Assembly: GCA_019753155.1 (NCBI GenBank) | Contig: JAIELG010000056.1 | Location: forward strand, 1 to 36,636 | Reading direction: 5' to 3' | Length of the DNA stretch: 36,636 nucleotides | Source of the DNA: Burkholderiales bacterium | GTDB lineage: Bacteria; Pseudomonadota; Gammaproteobacteria; Burkholderiales; JABEVD01 | Shown here: positions 277 to 25,692 of the stretch, one piece after another | Layout of the letters: the number at the start of each line of letters is the position of its first letter | How positions within the stretch are numbered: position 1 is the first letter of the stretch | Program-made: the position numbers and the translations under genes | The notes under the pieces: generated by a model | What the model saw: the letters and a program-made list of their open reading frames with translations, nothing else | Databases searched by the model: none | Told to the model about the DNA's origin: nothing

Positions 277-843
277 ATGGCGGAAGGCAAGCGGGGTTTG
301 AAAGTCGGGGAGAAAGTGCTCTTCGGAATATTCGGGGCGTTCGTGCTGCTCGCCGCAGTGGGATTTTATTTCATGGATGCGGCGGTGCAACAGCATCCCG
401 CGATGTTCAAGGTGACGACGCACTACAATCTGAGCGCGCTGGGGGAAGAAGGGTCTTCGATCTTCCTGAAGGAAGGCTGCACGGATTGCCATCGGGCGAT
501 GCAGGACGGGACGAACAGCGGACTGAGCCTGGACGGGGAAGGCTCGAAGCGGGATGCGAAGTGGATTTATGCTTTTCTGAAGCATCCGCAGGAAACTTAC
601 GGGGCCACGACGATAGACCACAGGGATGCGCCCGCAGCGGCGGCGTTCGTGGCGGCGCTGCCCGAGGAGAAGATCAGGGCGCTGGCGGCGTTTCTGTCGG
701 AGCTGACGGCGGATCGCGGCTCGGCTTCTTCCTCGCTGCCGCCGGAAGCGCATGACGATTTCGTCGACAAGATGGTGAGCATATGGGCGCCGGAGAGCTG
801 GAAGCTGAAGTACAAGGACGTGCGCAAGGAAGGAAAGCAATGA
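277..843 (+). CDS. Membrane-anchored monoheme cytochrome c
   Basis: 188 residues. An N-terminal hydrophobic segment (about residues 13-33) follows a short charged stretch and should anchor the protein with its heme domain in the periplasm. One CxxCH site (C68-T-D-C71-H72) binds heme c covalently, and the downstream W-I-Y-A-F-L-K-x-P-Q resembles the helix before the distal ligand in CcoO/CcoP-like cytochromes. Where those proteins carry a Met-Pro, this one has T-T-I-D-H-R-D-A-P; the only later Met residues are M75 and one near the C-terminus, so distal ligation is unusual. The stop codon overlaps the next gene (ATGA at 840-843). The likely role is electron transfer to or from the oxidase-like protein encoded next. 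The family is clear; the redox partner is inferred from position. Confidence 0.8.
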   Translation: MAEGKRGLKVGEKVLFGIFGAFVLLAAVGFYFMDAAVQQHPAMFKVTTHYNLSALGEEGSSIFLKEGCTDCHRAMQDGTNSGLSLDGEGSKRDAKWIYAFLKHPQETYGATTIDHRDAPAAAAFVAALPEEKIRALAAFLSELTADRGSASSSLPPEAHDDFVDKMVSIWAPESWKLKYKDVRKEGKQ

Positions 844-1376
844 GGGAACTCGTTCCGGAAGACAAGCCGCAGTGGGAAGCGGACAAGAGTTATACGCAGT
901 ACACGCTGATGTTCATTTACGCATGCGTGATCTACAGTTTCATCGGGTTCACGTGGGGCGCGGTGATGGGCGGCGTAGAGGACTTCCGCCATTTCGTGGA
1001 TCATCGCATGTACGGGAACCTTCTGGTTCGGGCGCATGCGCATGTCAACCTGCTGGGGTGGGTGGAATGCGCGATATTCGGCGCGATCTATTATCTTCTG
1101 CCGCGGCTGGTGAAAAAGCCGATCTACAGCATGAAGCTGGTGAAAGCGCATTTCTGGCTGCATAACTTCGGGCTGATCGGGATGGTGGTGTTTTTTTCGA
1201 CGGCAGGCGTGATCGGCGGCGCGGCGAGCCTGGTGGCGAGTCCCCAGGAGCTGGATTCCCTGGTGAAGCCCTGGCTTGCCCTGGTGGGAATATTCGGCAG
1301 CATAGTGCTTGCCGCTAACGTGATCTGGGGCTACAACATATTCCGTACCGCTTCGGGATGGAGGAAAACGACATGA
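840..1376 (+). CDS. Short heme-copper oxidase subunit I-like membrane protein
   Basis: 178 residues, starting at the ATG that overlaps the previous stop. Four hydrophobic segments are visible (about residues 18-40, 62-87, 103-127 and 146-168). The H-A-H-V-N-L-L-G-W motif followed by F-G-A-I-Y-Y-L-L-P resembles the helix with the low-spin heme ligand in NorB/CcoN-type oxidases, and A-H-F-W-L-H-N-F-G-L is also typical of the short COX1-like family. Full subunit I has at least 12 helices and the copper-site histidines; this protein is far too short for that, so it is not a complete oxidase. It may bind heme b and pass electrons to the coupled cytochrome c. Known: short COX1-like proteins of about 150-180 residues exist and are usually listed as cbb3 subunit I-like. 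Heme binding here is inferred. Confidence 0.75.
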   Translation: MRELVPEDKPQWEADKSYTQYTLMFIYACVIYSFIGFTWGAVMGGVEDFRHFVDHRMYGNLLVRAHAHVNLLGWVECAIFGAIYYLLPRLVKKPIYSMKLVKAHFWLHNFGLIGMVVFFSTAGVIGGAASLVASPQELDSLVKPWLALVGIFGSIVLAANVIWGYNIFRTASGWRKTT

Positions 1377-3465: not shown

Positions 3466-4941
3466 ATGATGTTGACAAGAATGAAGCTGCGCCAGCGCAT
3501 CCTGCTGGGCTACCTCGCGCCTTTCCTGCTTTTGCTGGCGGTGATGGGGGCGGTCTATGTCGATGCGCGAACCGCCGATCAAAAAAATGTGGAACTGGAC
3601 GAAACAGCCCCTTTTCTAGAAGACGTGGTGGTCGCGGCAGACTCCCTGGTGCGCATGCAGCGCGCGTCTTTTGCATATGTGCTCACCAATGGAAAAGCCT
3701 ACGGGAACGGAAGCGGGTATCCGAAAAAAATCTACGAAGCCAGCGCATCGAGGTTCCAGGAGACGATGAATAAACTCGAACCTTTGGGCGAACGGGTCGG
3801 GCAACAGGATGCGCTTCGCCGGATGGCGACGATAGGCGACAACATCGCTCAGGTGACCCATCATTACATGGAGCTGGTCGATGCGGGCAGGGAGAAGGAA
3901 GCCGTCGCGGAGGCGCGCCGCGGCGAAAGCATCAGGCTTTCCAGTCAAATCGACCCGCTGATCGATTCCATAGTGAAAGACGAGACGGCGCGCCGGAACA
4001 GGCAACGCACGGAAGTGGGCGAGCTTATCGACAAGATCCAGAACACGGTCGAGATCGGGACATTGTCGGCCATCGCGCTGACCGTGATCCTGGGCTTGTC
4101 GATCGCCACGGTGGTGAGCCGCAGCATCACTTCCAGCGCCGCGCAGCTTTCCTCCGCCAGCAGCGAAATCGCCGCAACCATAGCCCAGCACGAACGCACC
4201 GCCAGCCAGCAGGCGGCTGCCGTCACACAGACTTCGGCCACTATCGCCCAGTTGTCCGCCTCGTCGCGCCAGTCTGCGGAGCAGGCGGCGAATTCGGCAA
4301 CGCTTGCGGAACGCGCCGCTTCCACCACGGCGGAGGGCAGCGATTCCACGATGCAGGTGGTGGCAGCGATGGGCCGCCTCAGGGAAAAGATCGGCGCCAT
4401 GGCTGACCAGACATTGCATCTGAGCGAGCAGACCGGGCAGATCGGGAATATCGCCACCCTGGTCAAGGATTTATCCGGGCAGATCAACATGCTGGCTTTG
4501 AATGCCGCAGTGGAAGCGGCGCGTGCCGGCGAACACGGCAAGGGGTTTGCCGTGGTGGCGAGCGAAATACGCAAGCTTGCCGACCAGAGCAAGAAATCGG
4601 CGGAACAGACCGCAATGCTGGTGACCGACATTCAAAAAGCCACCAATTCCTCCATCATGATTACGGAGGAAGGCAGTCGCACCGTTACCGATGTGACCCA
4701 ACTGGTGCAGAAGGTGGCCGAAATCTTCAATAACCTGGCAAACGTGGCGGGTCGCGTCAATGAAAATTCACAGCAGATGATGCTGAACACGAAACAGCAA
4801 TCCATCGCCTTCGCCCAGGTGGCGGACGCGGCCAACAGCATCGCTGCCGGCTCCAAGGAAACGGCCGCCGGCATCAGCCAGACCAAGGTCGGGGTGCAGA
4901 ACCTGAACGAGGTGGCGGAAAACCTCAAGGCGATAGCATGA
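3466..4941 (+). CDS. Methyl-accepting chemotaxis protein
   Basis: 491 residues. Two ATG codons are adjacent (3466 and 3469); AGGAG at 3458-3462 is better spaced for the second, so the true start may be 3469. Segment TM1 covers about residues 14-33, then a periplasmic helical domain of roughly 150 residues resembling a four-helix-bundle sensor, then TM2 at about 195-215. A canonical HAMP domain is not obvious: the helix runs almost directly into the signalling coiled coil. The hairpin tip ([20 protein letters not shown] and on through [12 protein letters not shown]) is fully conserved. Gln/Glu pairs suitable for methylation occur on both arms, and CheR and CheB are encoded in the operon. The ligand cannot be read from sequence. 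Confidence 0.93.
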
Positions 4942-4953
4942 TGGAATTTGTCG

Positions 4954-5283
4954 CCCCCACCCCAACCCTCCCCCGCGCTGTGCGCAAGGGAGGGTGCTTC
5001 GAATTTTCTCCCCGCCTGCCGGAGAAAGCCGCGTTCATTCTCCCCCGCGCTGTGCGCAAGGGAGGGTGCTTCGAATTTTTCCCGCGCCTGCCGGAGGTCG
5101 CGTTCACCTCCCTCCCCGCTGCGCGCAAGGGAGGGCGCTTCGAATTCTTCCCGCGCCTGCCGGAGGTTGCGTTCACCTCCCTCCCCGCTGCGCGCAAAGG
5201 AGGGCGCTCCGAATGATCCCCCCGCCTGCCGGAGGTCGCGTTCACCTCCCTCCCCCGCGTGCGGGGGAGGGTTGGGGTGGGGG
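4954..5283 (+). repeat. REP-like tandem repeat array bounded by a 23-bp inverted repeat
   Basis: About five units with starts near 4968, 5040, 5112, 5181 and 5250 (periods 72, 72, 69 and 69 bp). Each unit holds CCCTCCCC...AAGGGAGGG, then a TTCGAA core, then a second hairpin of the form GGAGGTCGCGTTCACCTCC. The last copy is a compact palindrome, CCCTCCCCCGC GT GCGGGGGAGGG (5248-5271). The ends, 4954-4976 and 5261-5283, are perfect 23-bp reverse complements. The array fills the 354-bp gap between the MCP gene and the DUF559 gene. In silico translations of such C/G-rich repeats give the P-x-P-T-L-P and A-G-E-G words seen scattered through many proteobacterial genomes. Unit lengths are multiples of three, so several frames stay open, but I regard these as non-coding. 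Confidence 0.88.
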
Positions 5284-5295
5284 TGCATAAAAGCC

Positions 5296-5643
5296 ATGCG
5301 TAACCCCATAACTCAAAACCACGCATGCACGCTGAGAAAACATGCGACGGACACCGAACGCCACCTTTGGCGCTATCTGCGCGATCGTCGGCTTGGAGGC
5401 TACCGTTTCAGACGTCAGGTGCCCATAGGCGACTACATCGCCGATCTCGCCTGCCTGGAGGCGAAGCTGATTATCGAACTGGATGGCGGGCAGCACCAGC
5501 GGGAATACGACGCGCACCGGGACAGACAAATCAGGGCGCAGGGGTTCCGGATCCTGCGATTCTGGGACAATCAGGTGTTTCAGGAGACACAGGCCGTTCT
5601 TGAGGTGATTCTGCAGGCATTGAAAACAGGTTCTCCACCATGA
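5296..5643 (+). CDS. DUF559 endonuclease-like protein
   Basis: 115 residues from ATG 5296, just after the repeat array; the same frame is open back to 4948 through the repeats, but that part is repeat sequence. Core motifs fit DUF559, a Vsr/restriction-endonuclease-like fold: T-E-R-H-L-W-R-Y-L-R-D-R-R-L-G-G-Y-R-F-R, then Q-V-P-I-G-D-Y-I-A-D-L-A-C, then L-I-I-E-L-D-G-G-Q-H and finally G-F-R-I-L-R-F-W-D-N-Q-V. The acidic D in I-A-D, the E-L-D-G and the Q-H form the expected nuclease core. DUF559 genes often lie beside such C/G-rich repeats. Its stop overlaps the cheA start (ATGA at 5640-5643), so cheA translation is probably coupled to it. It has no evident role in chemotaxis and looks like an inserted gene. 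Confidence 0.85.
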   Translation: MRNPITQNHACTLRKHATDTERHLWRYLRDRRLGGYRFRRQVPIGDYIADLACLEAKLIIELDGGQHQREYDAHRDRQIRAQGFRILRFWDNQVFQETQAVLEVILQALKTGSPP

Positions 5644-7688
5644 TCGCAGATAAGGAACTGGCCCAGCTCTTCAAGGCGGAAAGCGCCGAGCATCTCGCCT
5701 GCCTCGATGACGGCCTGCTGCGCCTGGAGAAGAATCCGGCCGATCAGTCGATACTGGAGGATGTGTTCAGGGAAGCCCACAGCATGAAGGGGGCTGCGCG
5801 CATGTTGGGGCTGGCCGGGATAGAAACCGCCGCGCATGGCCTGGAAAGCATCCTGAACGCTGCGCGCAAAGGGGATGCGCCGCTCACGCAGGAGGCGATC
5901 GAAGGCATGAATGCCGCGCTGCTCGAACTGCGCAAGCTGGTCGATATCGAATTCGCAATGGATCCAATCCGCGATCGGCAACCCGAAATCGACAATCGGC
6001 CGATCGGCAATCAGCAAGGCCCCGCCATCCCATATCCCCCATTCGATTCGTTCCATATTGAAACCGTGCGCGTGGAGACGCGCAAGCTCGATGATCTCCT
6101 GACCCTCGTGGGCGAACTCAGCGTGATCCAGGGGCGGGCGCAGCACAGGCTGTCGCTGATGGATGATTTGCAGGATCAATGGATGATGCTCGAACGCAGC
6201 CTCGGGAACGTGCGGAATACGGGATTGGGAAACAGGATCAGGCAGGCGCGCGACGCCTTGTACGAGGACGGAATGCGGTTTGAAACAACGGTCGGCATGC
6301 TGGAAGAGCAGGTGCTCGCCGCCCGCCTGCTGCCGCTTTCCACAGTTTTCGCGCTGTTTCCCCGCATGGTGCGCGATCTCGCCAGGGAGCAGGGCAAGGA
6401 AGCGGAACTTGTGGCCGAGGGCGGGGAGATCGGCGTGGACAAGTACATCCTCGAACAGATGAAAGACCCGTTGATGCACTTGCTGCGCAACGCCATCGAC
6501 CACGGGATCGAGCCGCCTGACGAGCGCGAACGCCAGGGCAAGCCGCCTGCGGGTAAAGTGCGGCTGCGCGCATCGAGGGAAAACGGCAAAGTGCTGCTGG
6601 AAGTGAGCGACGACGGCCGCGGCCTGGATCTGGAAGCGATCCGGCGGGCGGCATCGAAGCGCGGGCTGCACGATGAAGCAGCGCTTGCCGCCATGCCCCC
6701 CGCGCAACTGCAGCAACTGATCTTTTTGCCCGGCTTTTCCACCAGCGCCTTCGTTACGGAACTCTCCGGGCGCGGCGTGGGGCTGGATGTGGTCAGGGTC
6801 AACGTGGAGCGTCTCAAAGGCGACATCCGGATGGAATCCGTGCCGCACCGGGGCACTGCAATGCGGATGCGCCTGCCGCTCAGCCTCGCCACCACGCGCC
6901 TGCTGCTGGCAAGCGTGGGGGGGCGCGTATATGGCCTGCCTGTCGAATGCATCCATGTTTCGCGCGGACTGCGCGAAGAAGATGTTTTCACCCTCGAAGG
7001 CCACCCTGCCATCGATCTGGAGGGGCAAGCGCTGATCGCGCCCCGCCTTGCCGACCTTCTGGCTTTGCCCTCGGAAAGACGCGAGGCGGCATGCATTGTG
7101 CTACAGGTGGGCGAGGACCGATTGGGATTGCGTGTGGACGAAGTGCTGGACGAAGAAGAGGCGGTCGTCAAACCGCTGGGCGCTCCGCTCTCCCGCGTGC
7201 GCAATGTTGCCGGCCTGACCATGCTGGGCAGCGGGGAGATTTGCGTGGTGCTCAATCCCTCCGATCTGCTGCGCTCGGCAATGGCTGCGAAAGCGCAACC
7301 GGCAGCTCCCACAATCGGCACTTCCGCACCCCGCATTTTATTGGTGGAAGACTCCGCCCTGGTGCGCGCCATGGAAAAACGCATACTCGAAGAGGCCGGT
7401 TACGAAGCGGTTGCCGTCGCGGACGGAATGGACGCGCTCGATGCGCTGGGCAAACAAGGCTTCTCCGCGGTAGTGTCCGACATCGTGATGCCCAACATGG
7501 ACGGCCTGAGCCTCACTGCGAGCATCCGCAGGGATCCGCGCTACAAGGATCTGCCGGTGATACTCGTGACCACGCTTTCTTCTGACAGGGACAAACAGCA
7601 CGGGCTGGAAGCGGGCGCCAATGCCTACATCCCCAAGCCCTCATTCGACCAGCGCGTGCTGCTGGGAACCCTCAAGAAGCTGATATGA
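5640..7688 (+). CDS. cheA: Hybrid chemosensory kinase CheA with C-terminal receiver
   Basis: 682 residues. N-terminal Hpt domain with phospho-accepting His47 in F-R-E-A-H-S-M-K-G; no CheY/CheB-binding P2 domain is evident. A low-complexity linker (about 107-137) contains short DNA repeats. The dimerisation helices, with V-E-T-R-K-L-D-D-L-L-T-L-V-G-E-L, are followed by the HATPase domain: N box H280-L-L-R-N-A-I-D-H-G, then D-D-G-R-G-L-D and G-R-G-V-G-L-D-V-V. A CheW-like domain spans about 420-550, and a receiver has Asp614 in V-S-D-I-V-M-P and a conserved late K-P. It phosphorylates its own receiver and those of partner proteins in response to receptor state. The upstream ribosome site is weak, which fits coupling to the DUF559 gene. 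The end overlaps cheB by 4 bp. Confidence 0.93.
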   Translation: MIADKELAQLFKAESAEHLACLDDGLLRLEKNPADQSILEDVFREAHSMKGAARMLGLAGIETAAHGLESILNAARKGDAPLTQEAIEGMNAALLELRKLVDIEFAMDPIRDRQPEIDNRPIGNQQGPAIPYPPFDSFHIETVRVETRKLDDLLTLVGELSVIQGRAQHRLSLMDDLQDQWMMLERSLGNVRNTGLGNRIRQARDALYEDGMRFETTVGMLEEQVLAARLLPLSTVFALFPRMVRDLAREQGKEAELVAEGGEIGVDKYILEQMKDPLMHLLRNAIDHGIEPPDERERQGKPPAGKVRLRASRENGKVLLEVSDDGRGLDLEAIRRAASKRGLHDEAALAAMPPAQLQQLIFLPGFSTSAFVTELSGRGVGLDVVRVNVERLKGDIRMESVPHRGTAMRMRLPLSLATTRLLLASVGGRVYGLPVECIHVSRGLREEDVFTLEGHPAIDLEGQALIAPRLADLLALPSERREAACIVLQVGEDRLGLRVDEVLDEEEAVVKPLGAPLSRVRNVAGLTMLGSGEICVVLNPSDLLRSAMAAKAQPAAPTIGTSAPRILLVEDSALVRAMEKRILEEAGYEAVAVADGMDALDALGKQGFSAVVSDIVMPNMDGLSLTASIRRDPRYKDLPVILVTTLSSDRDKQHGLEAGANAYIPKPSFDQRVLLGTLKKLI

Positions 7689-23191: not shown

Positions 23192-23537
23192 CATTCCCGC
23201 CTTCGTGACGAAGGACGGATCTCTGATCCGGGAACTGATGCACCCCCAAAGCCACGGCAACCGCATGCAGAGCTTTGCCGAAGCCATAGTCGGGGTCGGC
23301 ATGGGCACTGCATCGCACCGGCACCTGGAAAGCGAGGAGATTTACCACGTTACCCAGGGCAAGGGGGAGATGAGCCTCGGGGAGGCGATTTTCGAGGTTC
23401 ACGCCGGAGACACGATCTGCATTTTCCCGCAGACTCCGCACAGCATCAAAAACACCGGGGATATCGACCTCAGGATCATCTGCGCTTCATCCCCGCCCTA
23501 CTCCCACGGGGACACCGAACTTCTGAAAAACTCATAG
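23172..23537 (+). CDS. Small cupin-domain protein
   Basis: 121 residues, overlapping the phosphoribosyltransferase gene by 20 bp. A single beta-barrel cupin with motif 1 H-R-H-x-x-x-E-E-I-Y-H-V-T-Q-G-K-G-E-M and motif 2 G-D-T-I-C-I-F-P-Q-T-P-H-S-I-K-N. The three His and one Glu of the metal site are present, so it should bind a divalent metal such as iron or manganese. Enzymatic or sensory function is unknown; such cupins are often dioxygenase-like or isomerase-like. Last gene of the oxyR-side cluster; its end overlaps the convergent unknown gene by 6 bp. Confidence 0.87.
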   Translation: MKNRYDDIPAFVTKDGSLIRELMHPQSHGNRMQSFAEAIVGVGMGTASHRHLESEEIYHVTQGKGEMSLGEAIFEVHAGDTICIFPQTPHSIKNTGDIDLRIICASSPPYSHGDTELLKNS

Positions 23538-23849
23538 CCCGTATTCTACGCTGCGACTCCAGAGCCTGTTCCGCCCGGTCATCCCTTCCTTGCAGGCCAC
23601 CCGGTAATAGGAGGCGGCCGCTTCCCTGAAAGCTGCGAAATCGAGGAGGCCGTCGTAGTTGGTGGGGTAAGAGATTTCGAGCGGCGCGGTTTCGTCCACA
23701 GGTTGCAGTATCCTTGCCGAAAGCCCCTTGTTCAGCATGCCGTCGGCATCGAGATCGAAGTTTACGATGGAAACGATATGCTCGTTTTCGTTCCATTCAT
23801 AATCCTGCACGTTCCAGATGAGTTCCCGGAAAATCGCCCTTGCGATCAT
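23532..23849 (-). CDS. Hypothetical protein coupled to fumarase
   Basis: 105 residues from the ATG at 23849, which overlaps the fumC stop (ATGA); a longer frame running back to 24092 lies inside fumC. The protein has no signal peptide or membrane segment, and shows W-N-V-Q-D-Y-E-W-N-E-N-E-H and a D-L-D-A-D-G-M-L-N-K stretch with several Tyr and Trp residues. No family is recognised. Tight coupling to fumC suggests co-expression, but not a function. Confidence 0.7.
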   Translation of the reverse strand: MIARAIFRELIWNVQDYEWNENEHIVSIVNFDLDADGMLNKGLSARILQPVDETAPLEISYPTNYDGLLDFAAFREAAASYYRVACKEGMTGRNRLWSRSVEYGL

Positions 23850-25243
23850 CGTTGCTCCCCGGGCATTGTCATGGAAACAAGATCGAGCATTTCCTCCAGC
23901 TTTTGCGCTTCCATGAGACCCGAAGCCGCTTCCCTGATCGATATGCCCTCGCGGGAAGCCCTCTTCACCAGACTCGCAGCCCTGTCGTAACCGATGACCG
24001 AGGCAAGGCGCGTTCCGGCCATGAGCGAGAGTCCGGCCAGTTTTTCGCAGCGCCCGCCGTCGGCTTCGAGGCCGGGAAGAAGTTTCTCGCACAGGAGACG
24101 GGAAGATTCCGCAAGCAGCCGCGCAGACTCGATCACGCTATCCCCCATCAGCGGCATTGCGACGTTGAGTTCGAGTATGGAGCCCACGCCGCCGAAATCG
24201 CAAAAGGATGCGGCCATATCGTTTGCGACGATCCTGACGGACATCTGAATGACGGCCTCCGAAATGACGGGGTTCACCTTTCCCGGCATGATGGACGAAC
24301 CGGGCTGGATTTCGGGGAGAACGAGTTCTCCCAAACCGCAATTCGGGCCGCTTGCCATCAGCCTGATGTCGTTCGCGATTTTCGACAGGCTCGCGGCAGC
24401 TGTTCTGAGCGCCCCGGAGAAATGCAGCAGGGCGTTTTTCGATCCCTGAGCTTCGAAATGATCCACGGCTTCGAGAAACCTGATGCCCGTGGATTTTGAA
24501 AGCTCAGCCGCAACTCTTTTGCCGAATTCAGGATGGGTGTTGATCCCGGTTCCAACCGCCGTCCCGCCTATGGCAAGGAATTTCAGGCCTTCCAGCGCGG
24601 CTTCCAGGCGCTCGATGCCCTGCGCGATCTGCCCGGCGAATCCGCCGAAAACCTGCCCCATCCTGACCGGGGTCGCATCCATGAGGTGAGTCCTGCCGGG
24701 CTTCACGACATCGTCCCAGAGCCGAGCCTTCCCTTCCAGCATTGCCTGCAATCGGCAAAGAACGGGAAGGAGTTCCGATTTCGAAAAAACGCAAACCGCG
24801 ACATGAAGCGCGGTCGGAAAAACATCGTTGCTCGACTGGCCCATGTTCACATGATCGTTGGGATGAACCGGATCCTTCGCGCCTCGTGAAAATCCGGCGA
24901 TTTCGTTCGCCCTGTTGGCGATCACCTCGTTCGCATTCATGTTGGTGCTCGTCCCGGAACCCGTCTGGAACACGTCCAGCACGAAATGGCTGTCGTGCTC
25001 GCCTGCGGCAACTTCCCTCCCCGCCTTCAGGATGAGTTCGGCGCGCATTGCATCCAGTTTTTCAAGATCCAGATTGACGCGCGCGCAGGCTGCCTTGACG
25101 AAGCCCAGTGCGTGAATCGCTTCCAGGGGGATCAGGCGCCCGCTTTTTGCGAAATTGACCCTCGCCCGCTCCGTGCTCGCGCCCCAGAGCGCCTGCTCGG
25201 GAACGGCGATCGAACCCATGGAATCGGATTCGTTGCGCTCCAT
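23846..25243 (-). CDS. fumC: Class II fumarate hydratase
   Basis: 465 residues. The fumarase/aspartase signature G-S-S-I-M-P-G-K-V-N-P is intact, along with the start S-D-S-M-G-S-I-A-V-P-E-Q-A-L-W-G-A-S-T, the substrate-binding T-G-S-G-T-S-T-N-M-N-A-N-E-V and the N-M-G-Q-S-S-N-D segment. It converts fumarate and water to L-malate in the citric acid cycle and, being iron-free, works under oxidative stress. That matches its neighbourhood of peroxide-defence genes. Length is typical. Class II fumarase fits better than aspartase because of the H-P-N-D-H-V-N and T-H-L-M-D-A-T-P-V-R blocks. A 32-residue membrane peptide is encoded 4 bp upstream and an unknown protein overlaps its 3' end. Confidence 0.94.
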   Translation of the reverse strand: MERNESDSMGSIAVPEQALWGASTERARVNFAKSGRLIPLEAIHALGFVKAACARVNLDLEKLDAMRAELILKAGREVAAGEHDSHFVLDVFQTGSGTSTNMNANEVIANRANEIAGFSRGAKDPVHPNDHVNMGQSSNDVFPTALHVAVCVFSKSELLPVLCRLQAMLEGKARLWDDVVKPGRTHLMDATPVRMGQVFGGFAGQIAQGIERLEAALEGLKFLAIGGTAVGTGINTHPEFGKRVAAELSKSTGIRFLEAVDHFEAQGSKNALLHFSGALRTAAASLSKIANDIRLMASGPNCGLGELVLPEIQPGSSIMPGKVNPVISEAVIQMSVRIVANDMAASFCDFGGVGSILELNVAMPLMGDSVIESARLLAESSRLLCEKLLPGLEADGGRCEKLAGLSLMAGTRLASVIGYDRAASLVKRASREGISIREAASGLMEAQKLEEMLDLVSMTMPGEQR

Positions 25244-25247
25244 GCTT

Positions 25248-25346
25248 TCAGTGTCCTGCGAAAAAAATCAGTCCGATGATCATGATGACCGCAAGGAGCA
25301 CGATGAAAGCCCAGATGCTGCGCAATGTATCCATCAATGTTTCCAT
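25248..25346 (-). CDS. 32-residue single-span membrane peptide
   Basis: ATG at 25346, TGA at 25248-25250. An excellent ribosome site, AGGAGG, lies 5-6 bases before the start. The peptide begins M-E-T-L-M-D-T-L-R-S-I-W and continues as one uninterrupted hydrophobic helix, about residues 12-29 (F-I-V-L-L-A-V-I-M-I-I-G-L-I-F-F), ending in G-H. fumC begins 4 bp after its stop, so the two are probably translated from one mRNA. A plausible promoter lies 33 bp before the start. No homology is recognised; it does not resemble CydX. Strong ribosome site, membrane-like composition and operon position support it being real. Confidence 0.7.
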   Translation of the reverse strand: METLMDTLRSIWAFIVLLAVIMIIGLIFFAGH

Positions 25347-25378
25347 TTTTTCCTCCTGTTTTCAGGGTCGATACTTCA

Positions 25379-25406
25379 ATAATAGGAACTTTTCGCAATA
25401 ACTCAA
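25379..25406 (-). promoter_or_regulatory. Possible promoter of the small-peptide/fumC operon
   Basis: On the minus strand, TTGAGT (25406-25401) and TATTAT (25384-25379) are separated by 16 bp, 33 bp before the ATG of the 32-residue peptide. The -10 box fits well and the -35 moderately. Confidence 0.4.
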
Positions 25407-25500: not shown

Positions 25501-25692
25501 ATGTCCGTAAGTTCAGTCAGTTCCAGCAGCGTACAACAGATGCTTGCCCTGCAACAGTCGCAGCAGGTCAAGCCGAAAGGTTCCGACGGCGACAACGATG
25601 CGGCCGCTTCCGCAGCGTCTTCCAGCCAGCCTCAACCCACGACAAATTCCAGCGGACAAACCATAGGCACGATCGTCAATACGACAGCCTGA
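25501..25692 (+). CDS. Small Ser/Gln-rich protein of unknown function
   Basis: 63 residues from ATG 25501, preceded by AAAGGA with normal spacing; an in-frame ATG at 25465 gives a longer form but has a poorer ribosome site. Composition is strongly biased: V-S-S-V-S-S-S-S-V-Q-Q-M-L at the N-terminus, a central acidic D-G-D-N-D, an Ala/Ser/Gln/Pro stretch, and the ending T-I-G-T-I-V-N-T-T-A. The N- and C-terminal words recall short hypothetical proteins of betaproteobacteria, but I cannot name a function. It probably has little folded structure. It lies alone between the divergent fumC operon and waaC, with 49 bp to the latter. Confidence 0.6.
   Translation: MSVSSVSSSSVQQMLALQQSQQVKPKGSDGDNDAAASAASSSQPQPTTNSSGQTIGTIVNTTA

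Follow-up and report, generated by a model that had tools for sequence, protein, structure and literature searches.

A putative genus-restricted small membrane protein gene, smp, at the head of a unit with a divergent fumC-like gene in Burkholderiales

The DNA analysed here, hereafter the window, is a stretch of 36,636 nucleotides from a Burkholderiales bacterium (GC content 58.7%). Three genes follow each other on its minus strand in the order smp (the name used here), a fumC-like gene and a gene for a 105-aa protein. The smp frame (25248 to 25346, minus strand, 99 nt with the stop included) starts with ATG and encodes a predicted product of 32 aa, METLMDTLRSIWAFIVLLAVIMIIGLIFFAGH. A ribosome-binding site, AGGAGG, is located at 25352 to 25357 (minus strand), five bases before the ATG, and a gap of 4 nt (25244-25247) separates the smp stop from the start of the fumC-like gene at 25243. 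The frame, the AGGAGG site and the gap are all present as an earlier note on this DNA had described them. The fumC-like gene (23846 to 25243, minus strand) codes for a 465-aa protein that falls in the class II fumarase/aspartase family (PF00206) as a divergent subtype, and its end is overlapped by 4 nt by the start of the third gene (23532 to 23849, minus strand), whose product has no family assigned. Upstream of smp, a conserved promoter-like block, TTGAGTTATTGCGAAAAGTTCCTATTATTG, lies at 25377 to 25406 (minus strand). At 99 nt, smp exceeds the default minimum of the gene caller Prodigal (90 nt); it has possibly been overlooked until now.

The AlphaFold2 model of Smp consists of one helix spanning residues 2-31 (mean pLDDT 94.6), and its best 18-residue Kyte-Doolittle mean is 3.2. 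Smp thus has the size (at most 50 residues) and the single predicted membrane helix that mark bacterial small single-pass membrane proteins, and the 9/9 genus genomes shown display the protein-level conservation across species expected of that group.

Other features of the window were recorded alongside this unit. Positions 277-1376 (plus strand) encode an unusual pair: one product is a membrane cytochrome c, the other a stand-alone protein of 197 aa that matches the last part of COX1 only (PF00115 positions 311-434 of 436). At about 4632-5643, overlapping frames contain repeated units that are nearly identical, among them NATSGRRG and LRAREGASN, and the ORF just after them has an end that we take to be of the DUF559-type endonuclease kind.

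A protein search with Smp against 200 genomes, its own included, gave matches in 29 of them at E values up to 1. The good ones were the window's own and eight from the same genus (E 4e-10 to 2e-4); the remaining 20 had E values of 0.09 or worse and fell mostly within long frames. In 9/9 genus genomes shown (the window's own plus eight) the homologue has exactly 32 residues, with ATG and TGA in place, and in the relatives its identity to the window protein is 47-63%; the count rests on 151 of the genomes without a match being taken, from their order, to lie outside the genus. The stop codons and frameshifts in close relatives that the earlier note had proposed looking for were not found, the 32 codons, the ATG and the TGA being kept in all nine genomes. 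Six residues (M1, L8, R9, F14, F28 and G31) are invariant across the nine sequences.

The pattern of substitutions is that of a protein-coding gene. Summed over the 36 pairs, pS was 0.57 and pN 0.26; with the start codon left out the pN/pS ratio was 0.48, a value drawn from 32 residues and nine sequences whose 36 pairs are not independent, and none of 300 column shuffles, which preserve relatedness and column make-up, reached a ratio this low (shuffle mean 0.87). Of the six frames compared, the real one had the lowest ratio, the other five ranging over 0.67-1.71, and its mean BLOSUM62 score was the best; the mean pairwise difference at codon positions 1, 2 and 3 was 0.366, 0.194 and 0.476, respectively. 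The comparison of synonymous and non-synonymous changes in the frame upstream of fumC, which had been suggested as a check, therefore came out on the side of coding. Conservation of the C-terminal codons may in part be due to the ribosome site of the next gene. Stop codons were absent from the alignment against a mean of 9.6 in the shuffles, 14/300 of which were also stop-free. Two other frames of the stretch likewise lack stops in all nine sequences, so an open frame alone is weak evidence, and this is what could be said for smp being a chance open frame; the conserved length, residues and coding pattern speak against it, and we give that explanation practically no credence. It is the comparison of sequences from relatives, and not the openness of the frame, that lifts smp above chance. 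On this basis smp is almost certainly coding and very probably a real gene. The homologues in relatives, the pN/pS ratio, the upstream block and the helix model together support the earlier proposal that the fumC unit is headed by a genuine gene for a small membrane protein with a single helix.

The distribution of the family was explored with a profile built from the nine genus sequences. Among 399 genomes of the order, 115 matched at E values up to 0.5, only the nine genus genomes reaching 1e-15 or better and the next match standing at 0.0037. Among 369 genomes of the class, four matched at E values up to 0.01, with the window as the only strong match and 0.0025 as the best value besides it. 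Both of these next-best matches lie inside long frames. Nine weak loci with short frames were tested for fumC, the 105-aa gene and other window genes, none of which occurred within about 1.5 kb. In total, no convincing smp homologue was found outside the genus in the 399 order and 369 class genomes, and no family or solved relative with a meaningful score was found in Pfam, NCBIfam or PDB. The smp family is apparently restricted to one genus within the reach of a sequence search on 32 residues, which could miss distant relatives. One of the nine weak loci, a short hydrophobic frame in genome G194 (L125/L011, C25 near 107919) that ends in ...IGFFIAMLVIISLLGVVFLAAV, matched the profile at E 0.006 with no window genes nearby; it perhaps represents another, unrelated small membrane protein.

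Signals for expression are also conserved upstream of smp. The ribosome site is AGGAGG or GGAGG in 7/9 sequences, and the two weak sites are a GAGG in one sequence and only AGGT in another. In all nine, the conserved block TTGAGTTATTG-GAA-AG-TCCTATTATTG begins 58-63 nt before the smp ATG. It can be read as a sigma-70-like TTGAGT-16-TATTAT with 9 of 12 consensus matches, a pattern that is weak taken alone (2 sites in the region versus 0.8 expected). With three mismatches allowed, the core pattern had 10 sites in the nine genomes: each has a single site ahead of smp, and genome G003 has an extra one. A reversed control pattern had 2 matches in nine genomes and 0 in 6 in another scan. Because the control also gives matches, the single extra site means little. 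A wider regulon defined by the block was considered and set aside, as only this one additional site was found beyond smp. The extra block, nearly identical, lies ahead of a gene for a 120-aa protein whose start is hydrophobic (L163 1501-1914; C48 near 37050), for which there was no NCBIfam match.

The DNA further upstream varies among the relatives. Genomes G002 and G005 (L112 4012-5977, L115 759-2706) carry about 1.9 kb between a waaC-like gene and the smp unit, and both retain the promoter-like block, with 2 mismatches, despite this other DNA. In genome G001 the distance between smp and waaC is about 140 nt. In the window, a 63-aa Ser/Gln-rich ORF (25501-25692, plus strand) lies between smp and the waaC-like gene, and weak homologues of it (E 3e-8 to 1e-3) occur elsewhere in 3/8 relatives.

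Comparison of the unit across the genus was the most informative for the role of smp. The three genes are open in the same order in 7/9 genomes, fumC directly follows smp in 8/9, and in all nine a gap of 0-8 nt separates smp from the next start. G003 has no fumC at the locus; there the 105-aa gene comes directly after the smp stop, and another fumC, 49% identical, is located on a different contig. This genome nevertheless retains the promoter-like block, the ribosome site and Smp, and its smp has a pN/pS of 0.45 against the other eight; as this falls within the range over genomes (0.42-0.61), constraint is no looser there than elsewhere. In G001, smp and fumC are kept and the 105-aa gene retains its ends only, owing to an internal deletion (L111 about 7030-7150). 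Judged from these sequences, smp is the only member of the unit that is intact in all nine genomes, and it persists whether it is fumC that is absent (G003) or the 105-aa gene that is broken (G001). Such genomes amount to a natural experiment: because one or the other neighbour is absent or damaged while smp stays, a function of its own can be told apart by comparison from that of a neighbour's helper. A tree of WaaC and KdtA (KdtA absent from G005; WaaC partial in G005 and G006) is unrooted and gives no direction between loss of fumC in G003 and its gain in the others.

Being the constant member of the unit, smp argues against both a leader peptide for fumC and a tether for FumC only. A leader peptide controlling fumC by attenuation had been one of the roles proposed in the earlier note, and a short ORF heading an operon has the outward form of one. 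The gap, however, is 4 nt in the window and 0-8 nt in the relatives, which leaves no room, in any of the nine sequences, for the terminator or alternative hairpin that attenuation places between the leader and the first gene. In the window, two terminator-like hits were found versus 2.5 expected from shuffled sequence; one falls within fumC, the other upstream of the promoter-like block, and neither is between smp and fumC. In addition, no Rfam family matched in the smp region at E values up to 1, the constraint acts at the level of amino acids, and smp is retained without fumC, all of which make attenuation extremely improbable. The same short gap suits translational coupling, and smp could be viewed as a translational enhancer whose strong ribosome site recruits ribosomes for re-initiation at the following gene, the peptide itself mattering little. 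The AGGAGG before smp, the 0-8 nt to the next start and, in G003, a matching layout in front of the 105-aa gene are in agreement with this, but for mere ribosome loading there would be no need to keep a length of 32, or L8, R9, F14, F28 and G31, or a pN/pS of 0.48. As the whole explanation, enhancement seems to us unlikely; as an added effect of smp it may well operate.

The neighbouring enzyme has its own peculiarities. The closest solved relatives of the fumC-like product are class II fumarases; however, it misses the cut-off of the NCBIfam model fumC_II (TIGR00979) with 503.2 bits against 664.75, as does its counterpart in G001 (515 bits), and the unlinked fumC of G003 passes with 756.6 bits. 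A class I fumarase occurs in 8/9 genus genomes (one match is partial, and the ninth genome is 82% complete). Because of the missed cut-off and the class I enzyme, it is not safe to name the fumC-like gene the citric acid cycle fumarase. In the order, the subtype was matched at E values up to 1e-150 in 4/150 genomes, one of them outside the genus (G034, 57%). In a scan of genome contigs, the best 80 of 588 fumC relatives were at most 61% identical, and viral contigs held one relative at 46%.

We then consider whether a small membrane ORF commonly precedes such genes. Upstream regions of 82 fumC-type genes (the best 80 of 588, plus L187 and L152) were scanned for hydrophobic ORFs 20-70 codons long that start close to a ribosome-like site. 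Such an ORF was present in 3/82, none resembling smp by eye, and two of the three presumably correspond to one transporter tail. The closest fumC-type genes outside the genus among those scanned, L050 (61%) and L187 (58%), lacked any such ORF upstream. Among the entries listed in searches of open-licence PMC literature, no title or beginning of an abstract dealt with a small membrane protein encoded ahead of fumC. The specific pairing of a membrane peptide with a citric acid cycle enzyme, which had made the locus appear unexpected, is thus not supported, and the proposed link between the two is upheld only in part: smp is no less constrained in G003 without fumC, the enzyme is a divergent subtype, and by eye none of the 82 upstream regions contained a similar ORF.

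A role as membrane tether or regulator had also been put forward. In its dedicated form, the cytosolic N-terminal segment of Smp (about residues 1-12) would bind the FumC-like enzyme and keep it near membrane respiratory enzymes. The position of smp immediately before fumC in 8/9 genomes, with a gap of 0-8 nt, is what such a link would produce, and the divergent FumC subtype is kept together with smp, the genome that lacks it (G003) having a canonical FumC elsewhere. Against this, G003 keeps a constrained smp and its promoter-like block with no fumC at the locus, so that smp is not confined to genomes with that fumC subtype; L050 and L187 lack a comparable upstream ORF; and the 105-aa gene is equally possible as a partner. 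The adjacency behind the proposal stands, a tether for FumC only is disfavoured, and we regard the dedicated tether or regulator as unlikely. Given the adjacency in 8/9, smp may still have a role related to fumC, with the enzyme gene lost secondarily in G003.

The 105-aa protein gave no NCBIfam match, a Pfam match below the cut-off only (E 0.16) and no fold-search match with E below 0.001; YEATS-domain entries topping the fold search were set aside, with TM-scores near 0.2. Relatives outside the genus were found in 2/141 genomes searched. A more speculative and, in our view, very unlikely arrangement would make Smp the core of a genus-specific docking module, in which the membrane helix and exchangeable soluble partners (the divergent FumC and the 105-aa protein), all expressed from one promoter, form a fumarate-handling metabolon at a respiratory complex, with the 32-residue helix as the anchor that holds the partners there.

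All these data lead us to favour, by a modest balance of probability, the reading that smp is a real, apparently genus-restricted gene for a single-pass inner-membrane protein that acts on some other membrane target and heads a short unit with a promoter-like block. Sequence comparison supplies the coding constraint, the fixed length of 32 residues, the upstream block and, in most relatives, the ribosome site. Smp has one invariant Arg (R9), placed towards its N-terminus; about 20 hydrophobic residues come next, and the end is FFAG-H/S-like. It would be translated from the first gene of the unit and, judging from R9, would insert with its N-terminus in; by analogy with other small membrane proteins, its helix could then pack against a bigger membrane protein or complex and serve it as an accessory or regulatory subunit. 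Ribosomes finishing smp would be handed across the 0-8 nt gap to whichever gene comes next, and the link of smp to fumC would be mainly one of co-expression. It is the amino-acid constraint together with survival without fumC that points to work of its own in the membrane. Smp adds a small membrane protein family, apparently of one genus only, that heads an enzyme operon; should it prove no more than a further orphan of this kind, the addition is a modest one.

Several known small membrane proteins offer points of comparison. The LRSI-type start and single helix of Smp seem to us reminiscent of CcoQ/FixQ (PF05545); however, that family was absent from the matches of the nine Smp members at E values up to 5, a weak negative as HMMER filters most weak matches, and kinship was not retained. 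Clustered with a weakly FixQ-like ORF (L191, E 0.14; G000 C2 near 50649) are CxxCH proteins resembling cytochrome c, along with a membrane protein that we take to resemble the formylglycine-generating enzyme family. KdpF and AcrZ are accessory small membrane proteins that bind a larger membrane protein; Smp is likewise a small membrane protein, but its unit is without a membrane transporter.

YohP (27 aa) of E. coli is reported to lower membrane potential and fluidity and to bring about down-regulation of metabolic enzymes (PMC12719787). Smp is like YohP in size class, as a membrane protein and in having no catalytic part. A YohP-type stress peptide, that is, a free hydrophobic helix altering membrane fluidity and potential on induction, would agree with the similar size and single-helix build and with the unit's own conserved promoter-like block, but the position-specific conservation in Smp suggests a protein partner, and we hold this role to be quite unlikely. 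For the favoured role as an accessory protein, a further parallel is CydX, the 37-aa small subunit of cytochrome bd oxidase, whose homologues are often unannotated (80/306 in a table of that study; PMC4325964). No Pfam family scored near its cut-off for Smp. Like Smp, CydX is under 50 aa, operon-encoded and has few conserved residues (PMC4325964); the CydX gene adjoins the genes of its own membrane complex, whereas the neighbours of smp encode a probably soluble enzyme and the 105-aa protein.
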